From contig JABHMO010000036.1 of assembly GCA_018693855.1 (NCBI GenBank), positions 1 to 48,448 of the forward strand: a stretch of DNA of 48,448 bases, in the 5' to 3' direction. Shown piece by piece: positions 1,357-17,593 of this stretch. This DNA comes from Candidatus Falkowiibacteriota bacterium. Lineage in GTDB: Bacteria > Patescibacteriota > Patescibacteriia > UBA11705 > JABHMO01. The position numbers were made by a program, and so were the translations under genes. Below the pieces are notes generated by a model. The model worked only from the letters and a program-made list of their open reading frames with translations, was not told the DNA's origin and did not search any database. Within the stretch, counting starts at the first letter, position 1. Each line of letters starts with the position of its first letter.

Positions 1357-1956
1357 ATGAATAAATACAAATATTTACCAGGAGATAAAAAACAACTATA
1401 TACACCAATTGGTGTTAAAGAATTATTTCAAGATGCAGTTAATAAAGAAAATGGGAATATAAAAAAAGTCCTAACATTAGATAAATACAAAAAAATCATA
1501 GAATTATGGCACGCATCTCCATTAGCAGTTGCGATATACAACAAAACAGGAGATAAATTTTTCTTATACCCGTCAGAAAATCCTGACGTCCACTTTATAA
1601 AAATGGACAAAAAGCAAGAACAAATGGAAGAAGGATTTTCATTAGAAGTAATGTCACTTTACAACCACAATCAGACTTTTGATCAAGATTATGACAAATT
1701 AACAAAAAACATCTGGGACAAGAAAGGATTAAACGACTACGATAGAAGTGAATTGCTACTAATTGCAAGATTAAACAGTAACTTTAACGTTGATAAATTC
1801 ATCGATAATATTAATAAATATCAATGGAAATTCTTACAAATTTGGTTAAGTGCCTTTTCTGAAAAGGATAAAATGTGGAGACTAATCAATGTAAAACCTT
1901 ATCCAAATGAGACCTCTTATCAACTTGAAGTTGGATTAACTGATTTCCCATACTAA
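1357..1956 (+). CDS. Hypothetical protein, partner of the PD-(D/E)XK-like gene
   Basis: This unrecognised soluble protein has about 199 residues. The ORF track starts at a TTG (1339), but ATG at 1357 (MNKYKYLPGD) is the more natural start. It has no signal peptide or membrane segment. Aromatic-rich stretches (WKFLQIWLSAF, WRLINVKPYP) suggest a folded domain. It follows the nuclease-like gene by about 25 bases with no terminator between them, so one transcript is likely. A hairpin with a T tract follows at about 2015. Function unknown. Confidence 0.6.
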   Translation: MNKYKYLPGDKKQLYTPIGVKELFQDAVNKENGNIKKVLTLDKYKKIIELWHASPLAVAIYNKTGDKFFLYPSENPDVHFIKMDKKQEQMEEGFSLEVMSLYNHNQTFDQDYDKLTKNIWDKKGLNDYDRSELLLIARLNSNFNVDKFIDNINKYQWKFLQIWLSAFSEKDKMWRLINVKPYPNETSYQLEVGLTDFPY

Positions 1957-2014
1957 TAAGACAATAAAACAAAATTTCACTATTGTCGCATTTGTCCTGT
2001 CGCATCACTCAAAG

Positions 2015-2036
2015 TAGCCTAATTAGGCTATTTTTG
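2015..2036 (+). terminator. Rho-independent terminator after the first gene pair
   Basis: The 16-base palindrome TAGCCTAATTAGGCTA is followed directly by TTTTT. It ends the plus-strand transcript of the two upstream genes. The bases before it (CGCATCACTCAAAGTAGCC) resemble the recurring intergenic repeat described below. Confidence 0.75.
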
Positions 2037-2120
2037 CGTTTTAAGCCCCCGACCCGAGTGCATCAGTGTCTCATTTCCCAGACCTCCAAATAAGCCCTTA
2101 ATTTGCTTGATCTAAAGTGG

Positions 2121-2200
2121 TTCTGAACCCTAACTGTGAGCCAAAGAAAATTATTTTCACATATCAAAAACAGTCCGTTTTAGCGGAGCTGTTTTTGTTT
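2121..2200 (+). repeat. Cassette-type intergenic repeat, copy A
   Basis: This is one of at least four related plus-strand elements. The shared core reads roughly TTCTGAACGCATCCC, then TAACTGTGAGCCAAA, then TTATTTTCACATATCAAAA, then a hairpin of the type AAACAG...CTGTTTTT. Here the CGCAT part is shortened; the hairpin arms are AAAACAG/CTGTTTTT with an inner CCG/CGG. Other copies lie at 2819, 4724 and 7546, and a degenerate one at about 8845. Confidence 0.7.
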
Positions 2201-2258
2201 AACAAAACACCAAAACTATGTTACGCTATTAACATTAATTAATAGAAATAATTGACTT

Positions 2259-2792
2259 ATGAAAAAATTCAAACTGGCATTTTGTATCATTTTCGTCCTA
2301 TTTCTTGTCGTTGGGTGCTCAAACTCAGACAAAAAATTAATAGATGATACAACCGAATTATTAACTAATTCCAACTTACCCCCAGAAGTGAAATTTGAAG
2401 GGTATATTCCTGAATCAATGAAAGTTGGTCAAGACATTGAAGGATATGCTAATTTCGAAAATATTGGAAGTGGGGAAATAATAGTTTTTGGACATCATTA
2501 TAAAAACGATCAATATACATCCACATTAACAACGAAGTCTGTTTTTAAGAATGGAATAAAAGGTGGCACAAATTTAGATCCCTTTGATTCAACAATTAAT
2601 CCAAACATTGAAAATAGTTTTGCAAGTCCTGGAATTTATAAATACGAATTTGCATTTTATGATTGTCAAGATATTATAGAAAAATACAATACAGAGTCTT
2701 GTAATATATCCTATAAAACGCCAACCAAATTAGAAAATGCAGGACTAGTCCCTCTTAAAATTGAAACGTTATCAACTCAGGTAACAAACTAA
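2259..2792 (+). CDS. Putative lipoprotein
   Basis: The 177-residue protein starts with a typical lipoprotein signal: MKKFK, a hydrophobic stretch and the lipobox LVVGC (Cys at about residue 20), so it is predicted to be exported and lipid-anchored. The mature part (about 40-175) looks beta-rich, with phrases such as VKFEGYIPESMKVGQDIEGYANFENIGSG that suggest an immunoglobulin-like fold, and it holds two cysteines near the C-terminus (DCQDI, ESCNIS) that could form a disulfide. Function unknown. It stands alone: repeat A with its terminator lies before it and repeat B with a terminator after it. Confidence 0.7.
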   Translation: MKKFKLAFCIIFVLFLVVGCSNSDKKLIDDTTELLTNSNLPPEVKFEGYIPESMKVGQDIEGYANFENIGSGEIIVFGHHYKNDQYTSTLTTKSVFKNGIKGGTNLDPFDSTINPNIENSFASPGIYKYEFAFYDCQDIIEKYNTESCNISYKTPTKLENAGLVPLKIETLSTQVTN

Positions 2793-2818
2793 TAAAACAT
2801 CATTAAAACAAGATGTTA

Positions 2819-2897
2819 TTCTGAACGCATCCCTGACCGTGAGCCAACTCAAATTTATTCACATATCAAAAATAGCAGAATTTCTCTGCTGTTTTTG
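2819..2897 (+). repeat. Cassette-type intergenic repeat, copy B, ending in a terminator
   Basis: This copy contains TTCTGAACGCATCCCTGACC, GTGAGCCAA and TTATTCACATATCAAAAA, nearly the same words as copy A. The hairpin AGCAGA-ATTTC-TCTGCT (2874-2890) is followed by GTTTTTG. It lies between convergent genes and ends the lipoprotein transcript. Confidence 0.75.
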
Positions 2898-2908
2898 TGT
2901 ATATAATT

Positions 2909-4669
2909 TTATTTAATTTGATCGCAATCAGAACAATTCTCTATGTAAGTGTCAGATCTGAAAATCTTGAAATCAGCAAGGAATTGATCAATGGAAGAAT
3001 TATCAGTAATATCCACAATCAAATCATAGAAATAGTAGCTCTGCGTGTTGCGACTTTTTAGCCAAGATTGTTTGATGAGCTCTGTTAGTTTATCGTAACC
3101 ATAATTTTGAGCGAATTTATTGTAGAAACAAAACCCTGTTTTATAGATATTTTGGGAGGTCTCAGTATTATCATACGCATGGATCGTTGTCTGTCCGTCA
3201 ATTGCCCAGCCGTTATCTAGGCATACAAATAATTTATCGTGATTCAATTGGTAAGTCACATACTCTGCAATACCTTCGACAAAAATACCATTTTCAGGCA
3301 AATATGAACTAGTTAATATATGAGTCATTTCATGAGCTAAAGAAAAAGGTTCTGGACATGGCGTGTTATCCAAATTAGTGACAAAATCATTCAACTTTGT
3401 TTGGTCAGAGTCTAACGTGGAATAAGCCCTGGTCGAACCTATTTGAGAAAATGAAAAATCAGCGCCACTAGCACTATCCCTATCTTCAGCTAATACACTT
3501 AACCCCACGTAAGTATGATCTGGATTTACTTTTATTAGATTTGCAACTCCACTGTAACATTTATCTAAAATTCGTGGATAAACATCGGTGTATGACGAAT
3601 ACTGATTGGGAAACTTGGCCCAATAACCTCCGGATAATTCAACTGATTTATACGGGTTACTACTTACTGGACAAATATAACAAGATTCTTCATTTCTAGT
3701 GTCTAGATCTAGTAAACAACTATCAACATAATCTTGGCAATCTAAATACAAAGACACAGATGCTTTTTGATCTTCGATTTCGTAATCATTAAAAACGAGA
3801 ATGAGCCCATTAATATTTCGTTCTCCATTTTTGAAAATTTCATTTCTTTTGGAAGGCCAATAATAATAATGTCCATTTGACTCTTTTTTAAAAACCTCAA
3901 AATGCAATGTATAAATTCCCCATTTATTATCATTGTCAATTTTTTTTATTTTTATTAAATACTCGTCATTTCCAACTCCGTCATTTTCCATCAATTGATA
4001 GGTCCCTGATTGGTAATGATTATTACCAATATTTTCAGGATGAATAGTGTCTAAATTTGACCAATTCACTGTCAGAACATCATAATCGTTGACTACATCA
4101 GTGTCGATCAATCCCTTTGAGATACAACTGTCGCCAAATTTATAGTAATTTGTTTGGCAAACAGTTTCTTTATTAGATTCGGTTGGAATTACTGAACCTA
4201 CTGGAGAAGGAATTGGAATCGATTGGCTGTTTTTACTTTTTGCAATACTTTCAAGGTTTGAATTTGTAATACCAAGCCCCAATTCCCTCATAACCTGGAA
4301 TGCATCAGCCGGTCTTCCTAGATAATGCATTTTTAGATCTGTTGGATTTATGTAATATGCTTCTCCATTAGCTTCAACTCGAAGTAAAATTTTACCGGAT
4401 AAATTTTTTGGTGCATAACCGTTAAATTTCGAATAATTTGATTCGTTGATCCCCAATCCCAATTCTCTCATAATTTGAAAAGCATCTGCTGGACGACCGA
4501 GAAAATAACGATTATTGTCTGCTGGGTTTACATACCAAGCCTCACCGTTTTCTTCTATTTGTAGAAGAATTTTGCCATTCAGTCTTTCGGCTATAGTTGC
4601 TGCATCAACTGAAACTACAAACGCTAATACTAAGAGGAATGAAAAACTTAAAAAAAACACTTTTTTCAT
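2909..4669 (-). CDS. Secreted metalloprotease-like protein with two GEAWYVNP-type repeats
   Basis: The protein has 586 residues. An N-terminal signal peptide (about 1-23, ending SVDAA) is followed by two tandem copies of a 55-60-residue module: GKILLQIEENGEAWYVNP...YFLGRPADAFQIMRELGLGIN and GKILLRVEANGEAYYINP...YLGRPADAFQVMRELGLGIT (about residues 32-145). This module occurs in many CPR secreted proteins and may bind the cell surface (inference). The C-terminal half carries HEMTH at about residues 444-448 and, about 20 residues on, an EGIAEY segment, a gluzincin-like zinc protease pattern. Several cysteine pairs (CQDYVDSC, CYIC) fit an exported protein. A paralog of the N-terminal part is encoded at 7633-8781. 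Confidence 0.75.
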   Translation of the reverse strand: MKKVFFLSFSFLLVLAFVVSVDAATIAERLNGKILLQIEENGEAWYVNPADNNRYFLGRPADAFQIMRELGLGINESNYSKFNGYAPKNLSGKILLRVEANGEAYYINPTDLKMHYLGRPADAFQVMRELGLGITNSNLESIAKSKNSQSIPIPSPVGSVIPTESNKETVCQTNYYKFGDSCISKGLIDTDVVNDYDVLTVNWSNLDTIHPENIGNNHYQSGTYQLMENDGVGNDEYLIKIKKIDNDNKWGIYTLHFEVFKKESNGHYYYWPSKRNEIFKNGERNINGLILVFNDYEIEDQKASVSLYLDCQDYVDSCLLDLDTRNEESCYICPVSSNPYKSVELSGGYWAKFPNQYSSYTDVYPRILDKCYSGVANLIKVNPDHTYVGLSVLAEDRDSASGADFSFSQIGSTRAYSTLDSDQTKLNDFVTNLDNTPCPEPFSLAHEMTHILTSSYLPENGIFVEGIAEYVTYQLNHDKLFVCLDNGWAIDGQTTIHAYDNTETSQNIYKTGFCFYNKFAQNYGYDKLTELIKQSWLKSRNTQSYYFYDLIVDITDNSSIDQFLADFKIFRSDTYIENCSDCDQIK

Positions 4670-4723
4670 AATTATTTCTTTAATTCTTATATCTAGAAAT
4701 ATTATAACACATTACAGTAATAT

Positions 4724-4790
4724 TTCTGAACGCATCCCTAACTGTGAGCCAAAGAAAAACAGCATATTTATCATGCTGTTTTTCTTTGAC
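4724..4790 (+). repeat. Cassette-type intergenic repeat, copy C, with a 16-bp inverted repeat
   Basis: The words TTCTGAACGCATCCCTAAC and TGTGAGCCAAAGAAAA match copies A and B. The hairpin is CAAAGAAAAACAGCAT (4750-4765) with the perfect complement ATGCTGTTTTTCTTTG (4773-4788). It sits between two divergent genes, where a terminator is not expected, which supports a mobile or cassette-boundary role. Confidence 0.75.
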
Positions 4791-4842
4791 TTAATAGTCA
4801 TTCATTGATAAAATATAGTAATTAGACTATAACTATATATTT

Positions 4843-5838
4843 ATGAGTTGTTGTACAAATTTGAATAAAAAGATTGGAATCGACACTAATACTAAGAAAA
4901 AAGAACAATTAAAAAATAAAAAGGTACTATTGAATTTTAATCATCAAAAATGGAGTGAGCCAACATATGGTCCATACTTCAAAACAATTCTATTATTTAT
5001 TACCAATCGATGTAATTTAAATTGTTCTTTTTGTTTTGATAATGCAAATGTGCATGGGTTAGAGGAAATGAGCTTTGATTATATAAAAAAAATCGTTGAC
5101 AACAATCCTCAAGTTAATAAATATGACATCATGGGTGGTGAACCTTTGTTACATAATGATTTAGATAAAATACTGAGGTATTTGGCAAAAAAAGGGAAAA
5201 AAATTGGTTTATATACAAATGGATTCTTGCTTCATAAATTAAAAGACGATTATGATAATTTAAAAGTTAATATTGCTTTTCATAGCATCAATTCTAAAAA
5301 TAAGTCATTGAAACCCATTGCATGCTTGAATGAATCAATAAAAAAAATACAACAAATATACCCCTTAAAAGTCGTCTTTCTGATAACAAACAAAAATAAA
5401 AAATTGTTACTAAAATTTGCAAAATATATAGAAAATAATTTCAAATTAATAAATAAATTAACTATTGGTTTAGTGCGAAATGAAGAAGATTATTACAATG
5501 ACAACTATGAAGGAATAGTCTCTTTTGATGAATACGTAAAAATAGTTAAAGACTATGTAAATAATTACGGAGGTACTTTAGATTTAGATATTTTCGCAGA
5601 AGGTATGTTGTATACAAACAAATTACCCTTTTCACAAAAAAATCAAATTAACCGATTCAAATGTGTATTTGTAGATAACAAATATACATCTTGTTTATAT
5701 GATATTGGCCCAGACAAAAAGAACAATTTTGATCCCGAAAAAAGAATAACATATTCAAATTGCGAATTGTGTCCAAAAACAGGGAAGAATAGATGTTTAA
5801 CCGACAAAATAAAATTAAAAAGGGAAAAAAATACTTAA
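4843..5838 (+). CDS. Radical SAM protein with SPASM/twitch-like C-terminal cysteines
   Basis: The 331-residue protein holds the radical SAM cluster motif CxxxCxxC at C57, C61 and C64 (TNRCNLNCSFCFD), then MGGEPLL (the GGE motif) and LYTNGFLL, all typical of the SAM-binding TIM barrel. The C-terminal end has further cysteines (C274, C284, C307, C310, C318) in FKCVF, TSCLY, NCELC and NRC, like an auxiliary Fe-S cluster domain of SPASM/twitch enzymes. Substrate unknown. It is the first gene of a tight operon with a methyltransferase (10-base gap), a NUDIX hydrolase and a guanylate-kinase-like protein. SPASM enzymes often modify peptides, but no precursor peptide gene is visible here; nucleotide chemistry is an equally open inference from the neighbours. 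Confidence 0.8.
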   Translation: MSCCTNLNKKIGIDTNTKKKEQLKNKKVLLNFNHQKWSEPTYGPYFKTILLFITNRCNLNCSFCFDNANVHGLEEMSFDYIKKIVDNNPQVNKYDIMGGEPLLHNDLDKILRYLAKKGKKIGLYTNGFLLHKLKDDYDNLKVNIAFHSINSKNKSLKPIACLNESIKKIQQIYPLKVVFLITNKNKKLLLKFAKYIENNFKLINKLTIGLVRNEEDYYNDNYEGIVSFDEYVKIVKDYVNNYGGTLDLDIFAEGMLYTNKLPFSQKNQINRFKCVFVDNKYTSCLYDIGPDKKNNFDPEKRITYSNCELCPKTGKNRCLTDKIKLKREKNT

Positions 5839-5848
5839 TAAATATAAT

Positions 5849-6496
5849 ATGTGCGATAGAATAACAACAAACAGTGTATGGGCGGAAACAAAAACATTTT
5901 TCCCTTTGTTCTTCGATTATTTAGAAAAACAAAATAAACAAATATCAGTCTGTGTAATAGGGGCTTCAGATGGACGTTTTGTTGTACCTTTGGCAAAAGA
6001 AGGATACACTGTAGTTGCAATTGAAAGTGATCCAACTTTGTTAAATGGTGGAATAATTTCTGTAGGGAAAAATAAAAAAATAGAAATATTGGGCTTAAAA
6101 AAAAGATTGGAACTAGAAAATGAGTTTAAGAATGTAAAAGTGATTTCAAAAAATTTTTTAGATATGAAGGTTAATTTTAAAGTAGATGCAGTTTTTACGA
6201 GTTCTACTTGGGATTGCTCCATTAATCATAATCGACCAGTCAAAGAATATATAGGAAAAATGCAAGCAATTATTAAACCAAAAGGAATATTTTGTGCAGA
6301 ATACATGATGCCCTGTGAGGATAAACATAAAAAAATTGAACATTTTATTGATGAAAAACAAATAAATAAATATTTTGATAAAAAATGGAAAATTATTGAT
6401 GAATTTTATACACCTGTTTTTAATGATTTACCTCATATTGGAAAAGAAATTGAGCACATTCATCGTATGGGATTTTTTTTAGCAAAAAACAAATAA
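5849..6496 (+). CDS. Class I SAM-dependent methyltransferase
   Basis: The 215-residue protein has a Rossmann-type SAM-binding start: VCVIGASDGRFVVPLA (motif I, about residues 34-49), then VVAIESDP (motif II acidic loop) and a later DAVFTSSTWD segment. It is a class I methyltransferase by pattern; the substrate is unknown. A cysteine- and methionine-containing stretch (CAEYMMPCED) follows. The start ATG is 10 bases after the radical SAM stop with no Shine-Dalgarno, which suggests translational coupling. The downstream NUDIX gene begins 13 bases after its stop. Confidence 0.75.
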   Translation: MCDRITTNSVWAETKTFFPLFFDYLEKQNKQISVCVIGASDGRFVVPLAKEGYTVVAIESDPTLLNGGIISVGKNKKIEILGLKKRLELENEFKNVKVISKNFLDMKVNFKVDAVFTSSTWDCSINHNRPVKEYIGKMQAIIKPKGIFCAEYMMPCEDKHKKIEHFIDEKQINKYFDKKWKIIDEFYTPVFNDLPHIGKEIEHIHRMGFFLAKNK

Positions 6497-6509
6497 AAAC
6501 ATAAAAAAT

Positions 6510-6941
6510 ATGACTCAACGTTACAAACTTCCAGTTGCCGCACATTTATTTTTAATAAAAGATAACAAAATATTACTTCATTTAAGAAAGAATAGCAGTT
6601 TTGAGAACATGTACGGAGTAATTGCCGGACACTTAGATGGTGGTGAAAGTGCAATTGATTCTATAATTAGAGAAGCAAAAGAAGAAGCAAATATAGATAT
6701 CAATAGAAATGATTTAAAAATTGCGACAGTATCACATAGCAATGCTAACAATAATGAATATATACAGTTTTTTTTCTTTTGCGACAAATGGGATGAAGAC
6801 ATTAAGAACATGGAACTAGACAAATGTAGCAAATTAACTTTTTTCCCAATTAATGAATTACCTGAAAACATTGTTCCTTATATAAGAAAAGCAATCGGAT
6901 GTGCAATGGAAAATATTACCTATTTTGAATTAGGTTGGTAA
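6510..6941 (+). CDS. NUDIX hydrolase
   Basis: The 143-residue protein has the Nudix box GHLDGGESAIDSIIREAKEE at about residues 36-60, matching Gx5Ex7REUxEExGU except that the final Gly is Asn (EEANI). NUDIX enzymes hydrolyse nucleoside diphosphates linked to another group; the substrate here cannot be read from the sequence. It starts PVAAHLFLIKDNKILLHLRKN, typical of MutT-like and dihydroneopterin-triphosphate-type members. It is the third gene of the radical SAM operon and could remove or produce a nucleotide intermediate of that pathway (inference). Confidence 0.85.
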   Translation: MTQRYKLPVAAHLFLIKDNKILLHLRKNSSFENMYGVIAGHLDGGESAIDSIIREAKEEANIDINRNDLKIATVSHSNANNNEYIQFFFFCDKWDEDIKNMELDKCSKLTFFPINELPENIVPYIRKAIGCAMENITYFELGW

Positions 6942-7001
6942 TTATAAATTGTTTTTTGACCTGGAATGATTAATCAAACAATTCACGACAAGGAGGCTGT
7001 C

Positions 7002-7511
7002 ATGATTATAAATATTTTCGGAGGTGGGGGAAGTGGAAAAACAACTCTTCAAATGGCGTTGCTTAAAGATCCAAGATTCATTAACGTAATTCCTTACACC
7101 ACTAGAAAAATGAGATCAGGTGAAGAAAATGGAGTTCATTATCATTTTGTAACAAAACAGTTTTTTAAGAATAAGACATTAGTACTAAAACGATTTGCTT
7201 TAGGACATTCATACGGATACAAACTGAGGGATCTACATTTGCCGAGAATTGGTATTTTAACAGTTGACCTAGAGGGACTTTTAGAACTACATCGTTTAAA
7301 TATTGAAACAAAAGTTATTTATTTAAATTTAAAAGAAGAAGAAAGAGTTCAACGAATGACTCTTCGCGGTGATACAAAAACACAGATATTGAATAGGATT
7401 TCACTTGATCGAGAAAAAATTGTTCACCCAAAGATTGATTTTCCTGTTATGGAAATAATTGGAGGAACAATTGCAGAAAATGCAACAAAAATAAAAAATT
7501 TTGCAACATAA
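7002..7511 (+). CDS. Guanylate kinase-like P-loop protein
   Basis: The protein starts best at ATG 7002, five bases after a perfect AGGAGG; the track start at 6966 is 12 codons upstream and has no such site. It has 169 residues. The P-loop GGGGSGKTTL lies at residues 7-16, followed by PYTTRKMRSGEENGVHYHFV, which matches the GMP-binding segment of guanylate kinases (TTR..R.GE.nGvdYhFv). The usual length is about 200 residues, so this is a short, divergent member that may act on another nucleotide. It ends the four-gene radical SAM operon and is followed at once by a terminator. Confidence 0.75.
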   Translation: MIINIFGGGGSGKTTLQMALLKDPRFINVIPYTTRKMRSGEENGVHYHFVTKQFFKNKTLVLKRFALGHSYGYKLRDLHLPRIGILTVDLEGLLELHRLNIETKVIYLNLKEEERVQRMTLRGDTKTQILNRISLDREKIVHPKIDFPVMEIIGGTIAENATKIKNFAT

Positions 7512-7540
7512 AACCTGAATCTTGATTCAGGTTTTTCTTA
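7512..7540 (+). terminator. Terminator of the radical SAM operon
   Basis: The inverted repeat AACCTGAAT-CTTG-ATTCAGGTT is followed by TTTTCTT. It starts at the stop codon of the guanylate-kinase-like gene. Confidence 0.85.
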
Positions 7541-7545
7541 TCAGA

Positions 7546-7628
7546 CCTAGAAACGCATTAAGACAACAAGCCAATCAAATTTCACACAAAAAAAGCAGCC
7601 CCGCGATCGCGAAGCTGTTTTTATTTTG
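7546..7628 (+). repeat. Cassette-type intergenic repeat, copy D, with terminator
   Basis: A more degenerate copy: AAACGCATTAAGACAACAAG, then GCCAATCAAATTTCACAC, then a hairpin AAAAGCAGC...GCTGTTTTTATTTT with an inner palindrome CGCGATCGCG. It keeps the word order of copies A-C, with CGCAT, GCCAA and TTCACA in register. It lies between the operon terminator and the convergent gene at 7633. Confidence 0.6.
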
Positions 7629-7632
7629 TCTA

Positions 7633-8781
7633 TTATAATACTCTATATTGATATTTCACATCATTGGGAGACGATGCGTTACAATCAGCTCCTTCAAGGG
7701 CTTCTCCATTAATAGTACAAGTTGTAGACTGAGTTCCTAAATACATAAATTCACGACCATCAGCAGTCACAGTCTCATCCTTCTCCATTGTGTATGGAGC
7801 GCCATTCAATTCAAACACAGCGGTTCCATCAACACCTTCAACAGAGACAACCCCTACACTGAAACCATTCACAGTTGCAGTTCCTCCAAGCATAGACCAT
7901 CCATCTAACCACGTATTGTAAATCTCCGTATCCATGTCATTATCAAGAGTCCAATAACCATCATTTTTCCATCTATTTAATACATCTTTCAAATCCGTCT
8001 TCGCTATTCTTATATAAGTATCTTCACCATGAAAGAATACTTCATAAGCACTCTGCAAATCAATAGCATTTTGATCTATTGTATCGTCTGTCTCCCCCAA
8101 ATCCAAGGCAACCTGTCTCTGCGCGTCACTCAGGGTTACAGCTACATCTGAAATATTATATCTATAGTTACATTTACCATCTCCATTATCTCCAATGATT
8201 TCATTCTCAACCTTCATTGTAACTGTAATAGTGTCTTCATCGTACAAAGACTGTTTACTAACTGTAGAAGCAGAACAATCGTCAACAGAATTAATCATGC
8301 CATTCAAACTATTCCCTGCATTTTCCGGTCTTTTTGAATTTGCATGAATCTTGACCTTGTCCAAATTTCCATTTGTAATACCAAGCCCAAGCTCTCTCAT
8401 CACTCTGAATGCATCAGATGGTCTTCCTAAATAATTCATTTTTAGATCTAGCGGATTAACATAATAAGCTTCTCCGTTTGCTTCGACTCGAAGTAAAATC
8501 TTTCCTGCTAAATAACTTGGGGCATAACCATCAAACTTATCATAGTTCGCTTCATTAATACCAAGCCCAAGCTCTCTCATAATCTGAAAAGCGTCTGCTG
8601 GTCTACCAAGAAAATGACGATAGTTATCGGCTGGGTTCACATACCAAGCTTCTCCGTTTTCTTCTACCTGAAGAAGAATCTTCCCTTTCAATCTCTCAGA
8701 CATTGTTGCTGCAGCATCAGCTTGAGGGATGAAAGAGACTATCAAGAACATTGCTAAACATAGAAAAATAGCTTTTTTCAT
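7633..8781 (-). CDS. Secreted protein with two GEAWYVNP-type repeats, unknown C-terminal domain
   Basis: The protein has 382 residues. The signal peptide (about 1-23, ending PQADAAA) is followed by two modules nearly identical to those of the 2909-4669 protein (GKILLQVEENGEAWYVNP and GKILLRVEANGEAYYVNP, each ending LGRPADAF or LGRPSDAF then MRELGLGI). The C-terminal 230 residues differ completely: no protease motif, several cysteines (DDCSAS, GKCNYRYN, TTCTINGEALEGADCNAS) and a beta-rich look. This is a paralog pair built by joining one conserved anchor or binding module to different effectors. Exported location is predicted; function unknown. Confidence 0.7.
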   Translation of the reverse strand: MKKAIFLCLAMFLIVSFIPQADAAATMSERLKGKILLQVEENGEAWYVNPADNYRHFLGRPADAFQIMRELGLGINEANYDKFDGYAPSYLAGKILLRVEANGEAYYVNPLDLKMNYLGRPSDAFRVMRELGLGITNGNLDKVKIHANSKRPENAGNSLNGMINSVDDCSASTVSKQSLYDEDTITVTMKVENEIIGDNGDGKCNYRYNISDVAVTLSDAQRQVALDLGETDDTIDQNAIDLQSAYEVFFHGEDTYIRIAKTDLKDVLNRWKNDGYWTLDNDMDTEIYNTWLDGWSMLGGTATVNGFSVGVVSVEGVDGTAVFELNGAPYTMEKDETVTADGREFMYLGTQSTTCTINGEALEGADCNASSPNDVKYQYRVL

Positions 8782-8844
8782 AGTTGTTTTGTTAATTTAT
8801 TGTTAAGGCTATTATAGCACATAACCTTGTTGTCGAAAAAATAC

Positions 8845-8920
8845 GTCAACGCAATCCCCTATTTTACTTTAATTTAAGACCAAATAAACAGACAGTCTTC
8901 ATGAATGGCTGTTTTTTGGT
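8845..8920 (+). repeat. Possible degenerate cassette-type repeat, copy E, with hairpin
   Basis: CAACGCAATCCCC followed by a long hairpin ACCAAATAAACAG (8879-8891) / CTGTTTTTTGGT (8909-8920). The word CGCAATCCC and the AACAG/CTGTTTTTT arms recall copies A-D, but the GAGCCAA core is lost. Like copy C, it lies in a divergent intergenic region. Confidence 0.4.
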
Positions 8921-8997
8921 TCAAAAAGCTGGAATCTCGATACGATATAAGCAGAGAATAACTAATGACCTTTGACAAAAAGACAAGGAGCCAAACC

Positions 8998-9249
8998 ATG
9001 AAGATAGCAAGACCTATAAACATGGTGCCTAACGAACTAGCATCAATCACACCAAATCGACCTGGATATGGAATGTTCAACGCATGGGACACTCAAGATT
9101 GCGCAGGGTCTTTTGCTCAACTTGACGGAGATGGAATAGAAGAGGAAGAAGAAGAAATTTTCAATCCAGACGAAGGAATCTTTCTCCCCTTTCCTAGAGG
9201 ATTAGGAACAAAACATCGATTCCCATTCTTCGGTAGTTCAAATTTATAA
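8998..9249 (+). CDS. Small protein of an unrecognised triplicated family, copy 1
   Basis: The 83-residue protein is read from ATG 8998, seven bases after AAGGAG; the track start at 8965 lacks a ribosome site. It shares with the next two genes the N-terminal block MKIARPINMVPNELASITP...YGMFNAWDTQDC and the C-terminal block FLPFPRGLGTKHRFPFFG. The middle is variable and acidic here (GIEEEEEEIFNPDEG). It has no signal peptide, membrane helix or known motif. The fixed ends around a free middle recall small binding proteins or peptide precursors, but neither is shown. It heads a three-gene operon. Confidence 0.7.
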   Translation: MKIARPINMVPNELASITPNRPGYGMFNAWDTQDCAGSFAQLDGDGIEEEEEEIFNPDEGIFLPFPRGLGTKHRFPFFGSSNL

Positions 9250-9270
9250 AAACACTAAAAGGAATAATTC

Positions 9271-9537
9271 ATGAAACTCGCCAAACCAAAAGAGATGGTT
9301 CCAAAGAGACTAGCAAAAATCATACCACCATGTGAAAGATATGGAATGTTTAATAATTGGGATAGTCAAAACTGGGAAGGAGATTTTGAGTCAATTGATG
9401 GAACCAGCGAAGAAAACAAAGCCTTAAGCGATAAAAAAGAAAGACCACTCTCTTCATTCAGGCCTTTCCCAAAAGGACTAAAAACCGAACACAGATTCTC
9501 GTTCTTCGGCAGAACACATCTACCGGATAAGGAGTAA
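9271..9537 (+). CDS. Small protein of the triplicated family, copy 2
   Basis: This 88-residue paralog has a start preceded by AAAAGGAAT. It keeps MKLAKPKEMVPKRLAKIIPP, YGMFNNWDSQNWEGDFESID and FRPFPKGLKTEHRFSFFGR; the middle (SEENKALSDKKERPL) differs from its neighbours. The cysteine of copies 1 and 3 (TQDC) is replaced by Trp (SQNW), so that Cys is not essential to the family. Spacing to copy 1 is 21 bases. Confidence 0.7.
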   Translation: MKLAKPKEMVPKRLAKIIPPCERYGMFNNWDSQNWEGDFESIDGTSEENKALSDKKERPLSSFRPFPKGLKTEHRFSFFGRTHLPDKE

Positions 9538-9542
9538 ACAAG

Positions 9543-9812
9543 ATGAAGCTGACTAAACCAAATCATCTAGTACCAGACAGATTAGCATCAATCATACCAA
9601 GGCAATCGGCATATGGGATGTTTAGTGAATGGGACACCCAGGATTGCAAGGGTAAATTCGCAAAACTCGACGAGCAAGAAACTGACCAAAATGTCACAAA
9701 ACAACGTAACAAACCAAAAGAAAAACCTTTCTTGCCTTTCCCAAAAGGACTTCTAATAAAACACCGTTTCAGTTTTTTCGGCCGACCAAACCTATCCAAA
9801 GGAAAAGATTGA
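9543..9812 (+). CDS. Small protein of the triplicated family, copy 3
   Basis: This 89-residue paralog has an AAGGAG site that overlaps the stop region of copy 2, only five bases away, so the genes are likely coupled. Conserved blocks: MKLTKPNHLVPDRLASIIPR, YGMFSEWDTQDCKGKFAKLD and FLPFPKGLLIKHRFSFFGRP. The middle is rich in Gln, Asn and Lys. Family consensus over the three copies: MKxxxPxxxVPxxLAxIxP, YGMFxxWDxQxxxGxF and FxPFPKGLxxxHRFxFFG. A terminator follows at 9846. Confidence 0.7.
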   Translation: MKLTKPNHLVPDRLASIIPRQSAYGMFSEWDTQDCKGKFAKLDEQETDQNVTKQRNKPKEKPFLPFPKGLLIKHRFSFFGRPNLSKGKD

Positions 9813-12773: not shown

Positions 12774-12826
12774 AAATCAATTCCTTTCTGCTTGATAATA
12801 ACCTTCAGTCATGCTATTATTTGGCT

Positions 12827-14104
12827 ATGAAAAAAATCAGTTGTAATACACTAGTAATAGGTGGCGGTCCTGCTGGGATAATGTCAGCAATTAAAGCATC
12901 AGAAAAGAATTCTGATGTAATTTTAGTAGAAAAAAATAATCGATTAGGTGTAAAATTACTTATTACTGGTAAAGGCAGATGTAATATTACTAATGCTGAA
13001 AACAATGTAAAAAAACTAGTTGAGAAGTATGGTAAAAATGGAAAATTCCTTTACTCTTGCTTGAACAATTTTTGTACTCAAGACGTTGTAAATATGCTAG
13101 AAAAGTACGGTTTGAACACTAAAATTGAACAGGGAAACAGAATTTTTCCAGATTCGGATAAATCGGCTGATGTTCTTAATTTATTTGTAAAATTACTTAA
13201 AAAGCAGAAAGTTGAGATTATGGTTAATAGTGGGGTTAGAAAGATAGTCACAGAGCACAGAACAGATAACACGGAACAAAAGACTCCAAGCACAAAGATA
13301 ATCAAAAAGGTAATTCTTGATGATGGGACGGAGATTGAGGCGAAGAAGTATATTCTTACAACGGGTGGCAAATCATATCCAGCGACTGGATCGACTGGAG
13401 AGGCGTTTTTATGGTTAAGGACTCTAGGTCACAATATTACGAAGCTATCCCCTGCTCTAGTACCAATCAAGTGCAAAGAATCGTTTATTGAAGAACTCGA
13501 AGGACTGAGTTTAAGAAATGTAGAGATCGCAGCTTATCAAGACAATAAGAAAAGACTATCTCAATTTGGAGAGGCTGTTTTCACAAATAACGGGATGAGT
13601 GGACCTATTATTCAAGATATGAGTTCTAATGTTGGCGAGTTACTTGAGAATGGAGAAGTTAAACTAAAAATCGATTTCAAACCAGCACTCGACTTCCCTA
13701 CCCTTGATAAACGACTACAAAAAGATTTTCAAGAATTTAGTAACAAAATGTTTAGAAATAGTTTAGATAAACTTCTACCAAAGTCTTTAATTCCTATAAT
13801 TATAAAACTTTCTAAGATAGATCCTGATAAAAAAGTAAACTTAATCACAAAAGAAGAAAGAAATAAACTTCTGCATCTACTTAAAGAGTTCGAACTGATA
13901 GTTACAGCCTTAGAAAAGTTTTCAAAAGCAATCATCACTAAAGGTGGAGTAGATTTAAAAGAAGTTGATCCCAAAACAATGCAATCTAAAATAGTCGATA
14001 ATCTATATTTCGCTGGAGAGATCCTTGACCTAGACGGCCCGACTGGCGGCTACAATCTGCAAATATGTTGGAGCACTGGTTATGCAGCTGGGACAAGCAG
14101 CTAA
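12827..14104 (+). CDS. BaiN/HI0933-family FAD-dependent oxidoreductase
   Basis: The protein of about 425 residues has an N-terminal FAD-binding motif (VIGGGPAGIMSAIKA, then ILVEKNNRLGVKLLITGKGRCNITN) and the family's TTGGKSYPATGSTG and C-terminal LYFAGEILDLDGPTGGYNLQ segments. It belongs to the HI0933/BaiN flavoproteins, whose physiological reaction is mostly unknown. The track starts at a TTG (12821); ATG 12827 is more likely. TATTAT sits about 8 bases before it, so the mRNA may be leaderless. A stretch near residues 142-160 (TEHRTDNTEQKTPSTK) looks like an inserted, repeat-like tract absent from the family core. The stop codon lies inside the terminator stem. Confidence 0.85.
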   Translation: MKKISCNTLVIGGGPAGIMSAIKASEKNSDVILVEKNNRLGVKLLITGKGRCNITNAENNVKKLVEKYGKNGKFLYSCLNNFCTQDVVNMLEKYGLNTKIEQGNRIFPDSDKSADVLNLFVKLLKKQKVEIMVNSGVRKIVTEHRTDNTEQKTPSTKIIKKVILDDGTEIEAKKYILTTGGKSYPATGSTGEAFLWLRTLGHNITKLSPALVPIKCKESFIEELEGLSLRNVEIAAYQDNKKRLSQFGEAVFTNNGMSGPIIQDMSSNVGELLENGEVKLKIDFKPALDFPTLDKRLQKDFQEFSNKMFRNSLDKLLPKSLIPIIIKLSKIDPDKKVNLITKEERNKLLHLLKEFELIVTALEKFSKAIITKGGVDLKEVDPKTMQSKIVDNLYFAGEILDLDGPTGGYNLQICWSTGYAAGTSS

Positions 14105-16243: not shown

Positions 16244-17593
16244 ATGCCAAAACAGAATCAAAACATTAAAGCTCATGTAGTTGCAGTAAACATGGGTTAC
16301 GGTCATCAAAGAGCCGCTCACCCACTTCAAGAGATTGCTTACAGAAACTCAATCATTGACGCCAATACTTATGCTGGTATCCCAGCAAAAGATAAAGCGG
16401 TTTGGGAAGATAGTCGGAAAGCTTATGAGTTTATCTCTAGATTCAAAAAAGTGCCTTTAGTCGGGCAAGTTGCTTTTGATCTGTTTGATAAGTTCCAAGC
16501 AATTCCAGCCTTCTATCCAAAACGAGATCTGTCTGCTCCATCAATTCAAGTTAGATCTTTCTACAAATTAATCAAAAGAAAGAAATGGGGTAAACATTTA
16601 ATAGACAAACTAGCAAAAAAGCCATTACCAATAGTTACAACCTTTTTCATGACAGCTTTTATGGCAGAAATTTGGGATTATCCCGGAGAAATTTACTGTT
16701 TAGGAACAGATACTGATTTAAGTCGAGCCTGGGCACCACTTCGACCAAAAGAAAGTCGGATAAAATATTTTGCTCCTAACTACAGAGCTGAAGCTCGATT
16801 AAAAATGTATGGAATAAAAGCGCAAAATCTTTTCGTAACAGGTTTTCCATTACCTGATAAATTAGTTGGTGGAAAAAAAGAGAAAGCTGTGAAAAAGAAT
16901 TTAGGAAAAAGACTGTTCCGACTTGATCCGAAAAAAGTTTACATTAAAAGATATCATGAATCTATCTGTAAACACATTGATAAATGCAATGCTCCTAAGG
17001 CAGCGAAGCAACCTCTAACTTTAACATTCGCAGTTGGTGGAGCTGGAGCACAGAGAGAGCTTGGTATTGAGATTGTAACTAGTTTGAAACAGAAAATTGA
17101 GCAACATGAAATAAGAGTAAATTTAATCGCTGGTACACATAATGATGTAAATAAATATTTCCGAAAAGAGATCGCAGCGTTAGGTCTTAATCGAGAATTA
17201 GGTAAATATATTTCAGTAATCTACGAGAAAAAGAAAAAAGACTATTTCCTCGCTTTTGATAAAGCATTAATGCAAACAGACATTCTCTGGACAAAACCAT
17301 CTGAACTAAGTTTTTATACTGCTCTAGGTTTACCAATTATAATGTCTAGCCCAATTGGCTCACAAGAAAAATTTAATCAAAAATGGCTTAAGACAATTGG
17401 TTCTGGCATTGATCAAGAAAACCCAAAATACACAAGCCAATGGTTATTCGATTGGTTAGAATCGGGCTGGTTTGCTGAAGCTGCAATGCAGGGATTTGTT
17501 GAAGCTTCTACTAGCGGAGTTGAAAACATTAAAAAAGTTCTGGCTCATAAAGAACAAGAAGTACATAAAATAAAAAAGATCTTACAGTATTGA
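16244..17593 (+). CDS. GT-B glycosyltransferase, MGDG synthase/MurG-like
   Basis: The 449-residue protein has an N-terminal VVAVNMGYGHQRAAHPLQEIA, like the GxGH-AA start of MGDG synthase and related lipid or peptidoglycan glycosyltransferases, and a C-terminal half with TFAVGGAGAQRELG and WTKPSELSFYTALGLPIIMSSPIGSQE, matching the nucleotide-sugar-binding side of GT-B enzymes. It probably transfers a sugar to a membrane lipid; donor and acceptor are not readable. Its last codons and stop lie in a 31-base tandem duplication. The convergent pyrG gene is separated by a shared perfect palindrome. Confidence 0.7.
   Translation: MPKQNQNIKAHVVAVNMGYGHQRAAHPLQEIAYRNSIIDANTYAGIPAKDKAVWEDSRKAYEFISRFKKVPLVGQVAFDLFDKFQAIPAFYPKRDLSAPSIQVRSFYKLIKRKKWGKHLIDKLAKKPLPIVTTFFMTAFMAEIWDYPGEIYCLGTDTDLSRAWAPLRPKESRIKYFAPNYRAEARLKMYGIKAQNLFVTGFPLPDKLVGGKKEKAVKKNLGKRLFRLDPKKVYIKRYHESICKHIDKCNAPKAAKQPLTLTFAVGGAGAQRELGIEIVTSLKQKIEQHEIRVNLIAGTHNDVNKYFRKEIAALGLNRELGKYISVIYEKKKKDYFLAFDKALMQTDILWTKPSELSFYTALGLPIIMSSPIGSQEKFNQKWLKTIGSGIDQENPKYTSQWLFDWLESGWFAEAAMQGFVEASTSGVENIKKVLAHKEQEVHKIKKILQY

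Follow-up and report, generated by a model that had tools for sequence, protein, structure and literature searches.

A repeat that lies on one strand only, carries a terminator and recurs between accessory genes raises the question of how it came to be there: did gene units insert one after another at a shared site, or was a spacer copied together with its neighborhood? We addressed this in a window of 48,448 nucleotides, the entire contig C3 of a Candidatus Falkowiibacteriota genome (995,244 bases in 48 contigs; assembly completeness, 92.9%). A preliminary description of this DNA had likened positions 2000 to 8920 to an array of inserted gene-plus-site units. We find that local duplication of a spacer with a bidirectional terminator would explain most of the pattern, though not all of it.

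Results

A conserved core runs into a terminator hairpin

Three plus-strand copies are beyond doubt (Table 1). The upstream core scores 41 to 48 between pairs of these copies, a level reached by none of 2,000 dinucleotide shuffles; their likeness cannot be chance. Similarity begins in all three with an abrupt left border, TTCTGAAC. The core is 29 bases long, differs at 2 positions between 2819 and 4724, and is more conserved than the inner stems of the hairpin. When folded, it is mostly unpaired, and the hairpin stems vary yet remain paired; in copy 4724, the stretch that separates core from hairpin is shorter by about 19 bases. Folding beats nearly all shuffles at four of five sites, the exception being 8845, where 17 of 200 shuffles fold as well. 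The hairpins have the GC-containing stem and following T-tract of an intrinsic terminator.

Much of the preliminary description holds for these copies. Each strong copy leads into a hairpin and T-tract, all copies lie on the plus strand in gaps that adjoin genes of both directions, and the gene layout confirms that 4724 occupies a divergent gap. The statement that four copies share three words does not hold. The word CTGAACGCATCCC is exact in two copies only (2821 and 4726), GTGAGCCAA occurs in three (2136, 2839 and 4744) and again at 4955 within a gene and at 17355 on the minus strand, and TTCACATATC followed by AAAAA is found in two (2156 and 2858). The repeat is real, but smaller than was described.

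Table 1. Copies of the repeat and the genes between them
Feature	Position	Strand	Remarks
Copy 1	2120..2201	+	core minus 5 bases, TTCACATATC part, hairpin with T-tract
Small lipoprotein-like gene	2259..2792	+	separates copy 1 from copy 2; no family match; read by eye as lipoprotein from its N-terminus
Copy 2	2818..2901	+	full core, TTCACATATC part, both-strand terminator hairpin; convergent gap
Surface-protein-like gene	2909..4669	-	HExxH motif (seen by eye); paralogous to 7633-8781 in its N-terminal repeat domain
Copy 3	4723..4788	+	full core, then directly a long hairpin, middle part absent; divergent gap
Four-gene unit	4843..7511	+	radical SAM, methyltransferase-like, NUDIX, guanylate-kinase-like
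Copy 4, diverged	about 7546-7627	+	hairpin also reads as terminator of minus-strand gene 7633-8781
Paralogue of 2909-4669 in N-terminal domain	7633..8781	-	both flanking gaps homologous to those of 2909-4669
Copy 5, doubtful	about 8840-8920	+	similar hairpin type, AACGCA-ATCCC; related mainly to copy-3 gap

Site 7546 gave a weak match (E 0.6) when the whole genome was searched with a covariance model built from the three strong copies. Ranked by core similarity, it came next after the strong copies in a set of 1,021 hairpin/T-tract places, which come from the window and 26 loci of its own genome, duplicates included, and not from the whole genome. With strict gap costs, its score against 2819 was reached by 8 of 2,000 shuffles, against 4724 by 238 of 2,000 and against 2121 by 1,043 of 2,000. 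Softer gap costs gave a z of 8.7 against the 2121 site and a z of 4.7 against the 2819 gap, the best control pair (six site stretches compared with 17 other gaps) being 4.3. By these alignments, 7546 is a diverged copy.

Weaker relatives had also been proposed near 2000 and 8845. They rank 125th and 438th in core similarity among the same 1,021 places, and we rejected both as core copies on their own merit. Site 8845 has some support as a counterpart of the 4724 gap and is kept as doubtful; the site near 2000 has the look of a plain terminator for the gene that stops at 1956.

The core is confined to one region

The covariance model recovered the three strong copies and no further full copy in the genome; its remaining matches were terminator hairpins alone. 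These other matches (L012 to L032) had core scores of 14 to 27, 7546 itself scoring 23, and were rejected; we read the 27, in L028, as a chance word match. The exact hairpin type AAACAG...CTGTTTTT gave 21 matches, counted as 15 places, against 1 in the control, and 3 of the 15 lie in the region. Since the hairpin type also occurs at places outside the region, the hairpin is not special to the array and the core alone is.

Allowing up to 3 mismatches, we found the core in its own genome only among 93 near genomes, a set with four genomes of the same family and no other of the genus. In an overlapping set of 379 phylum genomes there were two matches, one in its own genome and one that shows no hairpin in the bases displayed and was set aside. 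At E 0.001, the covariance model matched 17 genomes besides its own among 285 class genomes; these 17 loci carry the hairpin only (core scores, 12 to 21) and were likewise discarded. Viral contigs held no relative of the core, and plasmid and phage DNA searched with one gap each yielded nothing. Core plus hairpin was not found in a collection of 84,980 species. This collection contains six exact matches to the 18-letter core pattern, all without hairpin, and by our own estimate about 7 are expected by chance; none is preceded by GAACG, an open frame of 133 to 557 codons spans each site on either the one or the opposite strand, and none was accepted. The collections searched may omit the window's own genome and near relatives. 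Because the core is without a relative in the genomes searched, it belongs to no genome-wide family of terminators, and it is not a known, shared site. The former had been named as the outcome that would speak against inserted units; no full copy lies outside the contig. A further check proposed was whether different genes sit between copies of the core in related genomes; no other genome searched shows this.

The copies bound accessory-looking segments

The segments bounded by copies have G+C contents of 0.28, 0.29, 0.33 and 0.28, against 0.356 for 10 to 48 kb. They look accessory, as the preliminary description had it, and are mostly AT-rich; their differences in composition are in keeping with accessory DNA from diverse sources, and accessory genes are indeed concentrated here. 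A search of 54 other genomes for the radical SAM protein of the four-gene unit turned up no close counterpart, the best being 40% identical over about 100 amino acids. Viral contigs searched with this protein, and plasmids searched with the surface protein, returned nothing. Synteny was sought in four stretches around relatives of the gene at 12821-14104, and only that gene matched the window.

Several side observations concern these genes. The unit at 4843-7511 is operon-like, with a G+C content of 0.28 for 4789-7545. The NCBIfam viperin model scores 45 bits on the radical SAM gene at 4843, far under its cut-off of 180. In the family member G004, a radical SAM/surface protein pair was likened to the 4669/4843 pair and dismissed, the radical SAM match covering 85 amino acids only. 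Three tandem small open reading frames at 8965-9812 (94, 88 and 89 amino acids, about 272 bases apart) share a YGMF..WD pattern and have no family match; their nearness to the radical SAM gene raises the question of whether they are precursors of modified peptides. A faint, subthreshold resemblance of the first gene of the contig (9-1331) to the antiphage GapS1 family (28 bits; cut-off, 320) hints that defense genes may be present in the accessory region.

Two paralogous genes have homologous flanking gaps

The two minus-strand genes at 2909-4669 and 7633-8781 share a 300-base segment at 79% identity, and their proteins are 73% identical over 151 amino acids. The homology extends into the gaps on both sides. 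The upstream gaps (4670-4842 and 8782-8964) match, promoter included, better than any of 1,000 dinucleotide shuffles, and 1 of 1,000 shuffles reaches the match of the site part alone; the downstream gaps (2793-2908 and 7512-7632) match at 0 of 1,000. Gaps compared crosswise match less well (their scores are reached by 8 of 300 and 168 of 300 shuffles). Homology of upstream and downstream gaps alike means that 2818/7546 and 4723/8845 are likely counterparts carried along by a duplication of gene plus flanks. The three tandem reading frames at 8965-9812 show that this stretch duplicates locally. Members of the same gene family stand side by side on a second contig of the genome (L093) and in two genomes from the same taxonomic order (L118 and L119).

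In L118 and L093, the coding sequence of the tandem paralogues is repeated and the spacers are not. No comparable repeated gaps flank the relatives' paralogues among 40 gene entries, some of which repeat the window's genes or come without upstream sequence; there are scattered weak matches only. G004 has a 77-base direct repeat with 83% identity (L090, 9567-9643 and 11420-11496) flanking a surface-protein paralogue and made of TACGGATTA-like units. We rejected these repeats as relatives of the spacer; the sequence is unrelated.

These observations suggest how the pattern may have formed. A segment made up of a conserved, unpaired core (about 30 bases) and the intrinsic terminator hairpin after it would have been copied locally within one accessory region. 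As part of this copying, the gene for a secreted-looking protein may have been duplicated together with its promoter gap and its downstream gap (2909-4669 and 7633-8781), which would make 2818 the counterpart of 7546 and 4723 that of 8845. The cores of 2121, 2819 and 4724 are nearly identical; they would then be later local copies, or may have been kept alike by mutual recombination. Today, the hairpins would serve as ordinary, often bidirectional, terminators insulating neighboring units. Two hairpins (2868-2896 and 7596-7617) are flanked by converging gene ends and are predicted terminators of minus-strand genes, which would be an ordinary use. The paralogy, the gap homology, the hairpins and the restriction to the region are direct observations; the route of recombination and the working of the terminators are inferred.

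We lean toward this account, in which a spacer with its terminator was copied locally and in part alongside a duplicated gene, with moderate confidence. Some facts sit poorly with it. The pairing is not clean, since 7546 is nearer to 2121 than to its supposed partner 2819, whose z is just above control. Copy 2121 adjoins an unrelated gene, and gene duplication does not explain its placement. Taken alone, 8845 shows no clear core similarity, and 4724 lies between divergent genes, a place where a simple terminator would serve little purpose.

Discussion

Could the genes instead have arrived as units? In a cassette-like array, recombination at the core would have inserted gene units in succession, every unit carrying in a site or duplicating one, and the recombinase would have been lost, be encoded elsewhere or lie past the contig end. 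The copies stand at successive unit boundaries in a single orientation, G+C varies from 0.28 to 0.38 between segments, and conservation is higher in the core than in the inner stems of the hairpin. The region also touches the contig start, so one array end may be missing. The preliminary description had proposed looking for a recombinase near an array end; the genome has two tyrosine recombinases (PF00589), both Xer-type and both on other contigs (C6 and C14). The gene on C14 (L006, 1123-1983, in G000) is shortened, and a stop codon interrupts the part of it that matches the family. No integron integrase was detected in the genome, where integrase_gron matches score 110 and 55 bits against a cut-off of 265, and no serine recombinase was found there. 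The attC box consensus is RYYYAAC/GTTRRRY, and no such pair, 30 to 160 nucleotides apart, occurs on either strand around five copies. Folded as an attC bottom strand, four copies are stable only at the terminator hairpin, the core staying largely unpaired. The earlier remark that the sites do not match integron attC is thereby borne out for both boxes and folding. Arms of the dif-like 11-6-11 type are also lacking: symmetry is at best 5 to 7 of 11, and between 625 and 989 of 1,000 shuffles do as well. The proposed insertion units come without integrase, serine recombinase, attC boxes or folding, dif-like arms or pairing of the core. Two of the units are, moreover, paralogues with homologous promoters, and the core is absent from the other genomes searched. 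As two modules are paralogues with homologous flanking gaps, local duplication suffices and site-specific insertion is not needed. We regard a cassette system as unlikely; the duplication account fits better. A narrower version, a lineage-specific system in this Patescibacteria-type genome and unrelated to integrons, in which an Xer-type recombinase would insert units at the 29-base core and a bidirectional terminator would insulate each, strikes us as very improbable. Among the open-licence papers that literature searches brought up, no title or abstract opening describes such cassettes in Patescibacteria.

Other readings dispense with gene capture. The segment could be a small multicopy RNA gene, whose short transcript would begin with the conserved unpaired stretch and end at its own terminator, whatever the direction of the neighboring genes. 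That would account for copies in divergent gaps and agrees with the fixed order of core and terminator, the mostly unpaired core and the stems that change but stay paired. However, conservation begins abruptly at the left border with no common promoter upstream, and the consensus-type promoter sites listed, which are all but 6 weaker ones, include no plus-strand promoter directly upstream of the three copies. No Rfam family matches the window at gathering score, lax matches in 1900-9000 being far below the cut-offs, and we doubt that an RNA gene is involved. The abrupt left border of the three copies would also suit remnants of a short nonautonomous mobile element carrying a terminator, and the genome has three Y1 transposase-like matches, two of them over the cut-off, on other contigs. 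Against this, terminal inverted repeats and target duplications were not seen by eye, and a total of only three or four copies, confined to 5.5 kb and absent from the rest of the genome, makes such an element equally doubtful. Finally, the core could be a putative regulator binding site attached to the promoters or terminators of a gene group. At 4724 it overlaps the predicted -35 hexamer of a minus-strand promoter (TTCAGA, 18, TATAAT; 4730-4701), and the promoter region is kept in both minus-strand paralogues. Copies 2819 and 7546, however, are located at the ends of genes, away from any gene start, and we give a binding site very little weight.

The distinction matters for how such regions are read. 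A cassette system, if true, would show how very small genomes of this type gather accessory genes. The caution is that local gene duplication can leave repeated terminator-bearing spacers among accessory genes, and that these imitate a cassette array. This accessory-gene region deserves attention in strain-resolved data.

CALINs, clusters of attC sites, are by definition without an integrase, and they and integron arrays resemble this locus in having repeated hairpin-forming sites in one orientation between accessory genes, with no integrase nearby. Here, however, there are no R boxes, the conserved core is unfolded, and the hairpin is an A/T-framed terminator; the genes run in both directions, one unit holds four genes, and the core is alike in sequence rather than in structure. 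An attC site, as described in PMC2727003, is a palindrome of 57 to 142 nucleotides bounded by R boxes (top strand GTT, bottom strand AAC). The dif/pdif modules of Acinetobacter plasmids likewise have sites of about 28 to 30 bases between accessory modules, with Xer genes elsewhere in the genome, but no 11-6-11 arms above chance occur here. According to PMC13141974, pdif sites alternate in orientation, whereas all copies here are on the plus strand. Local gene duplication with flanking terminators offers the same features as this locus, namely, paralogues with homologous upstream and downstream gaps and adjacent copies of the family elsewhere, and differs in that one near-identical copy here stands beside an unrelated gene.
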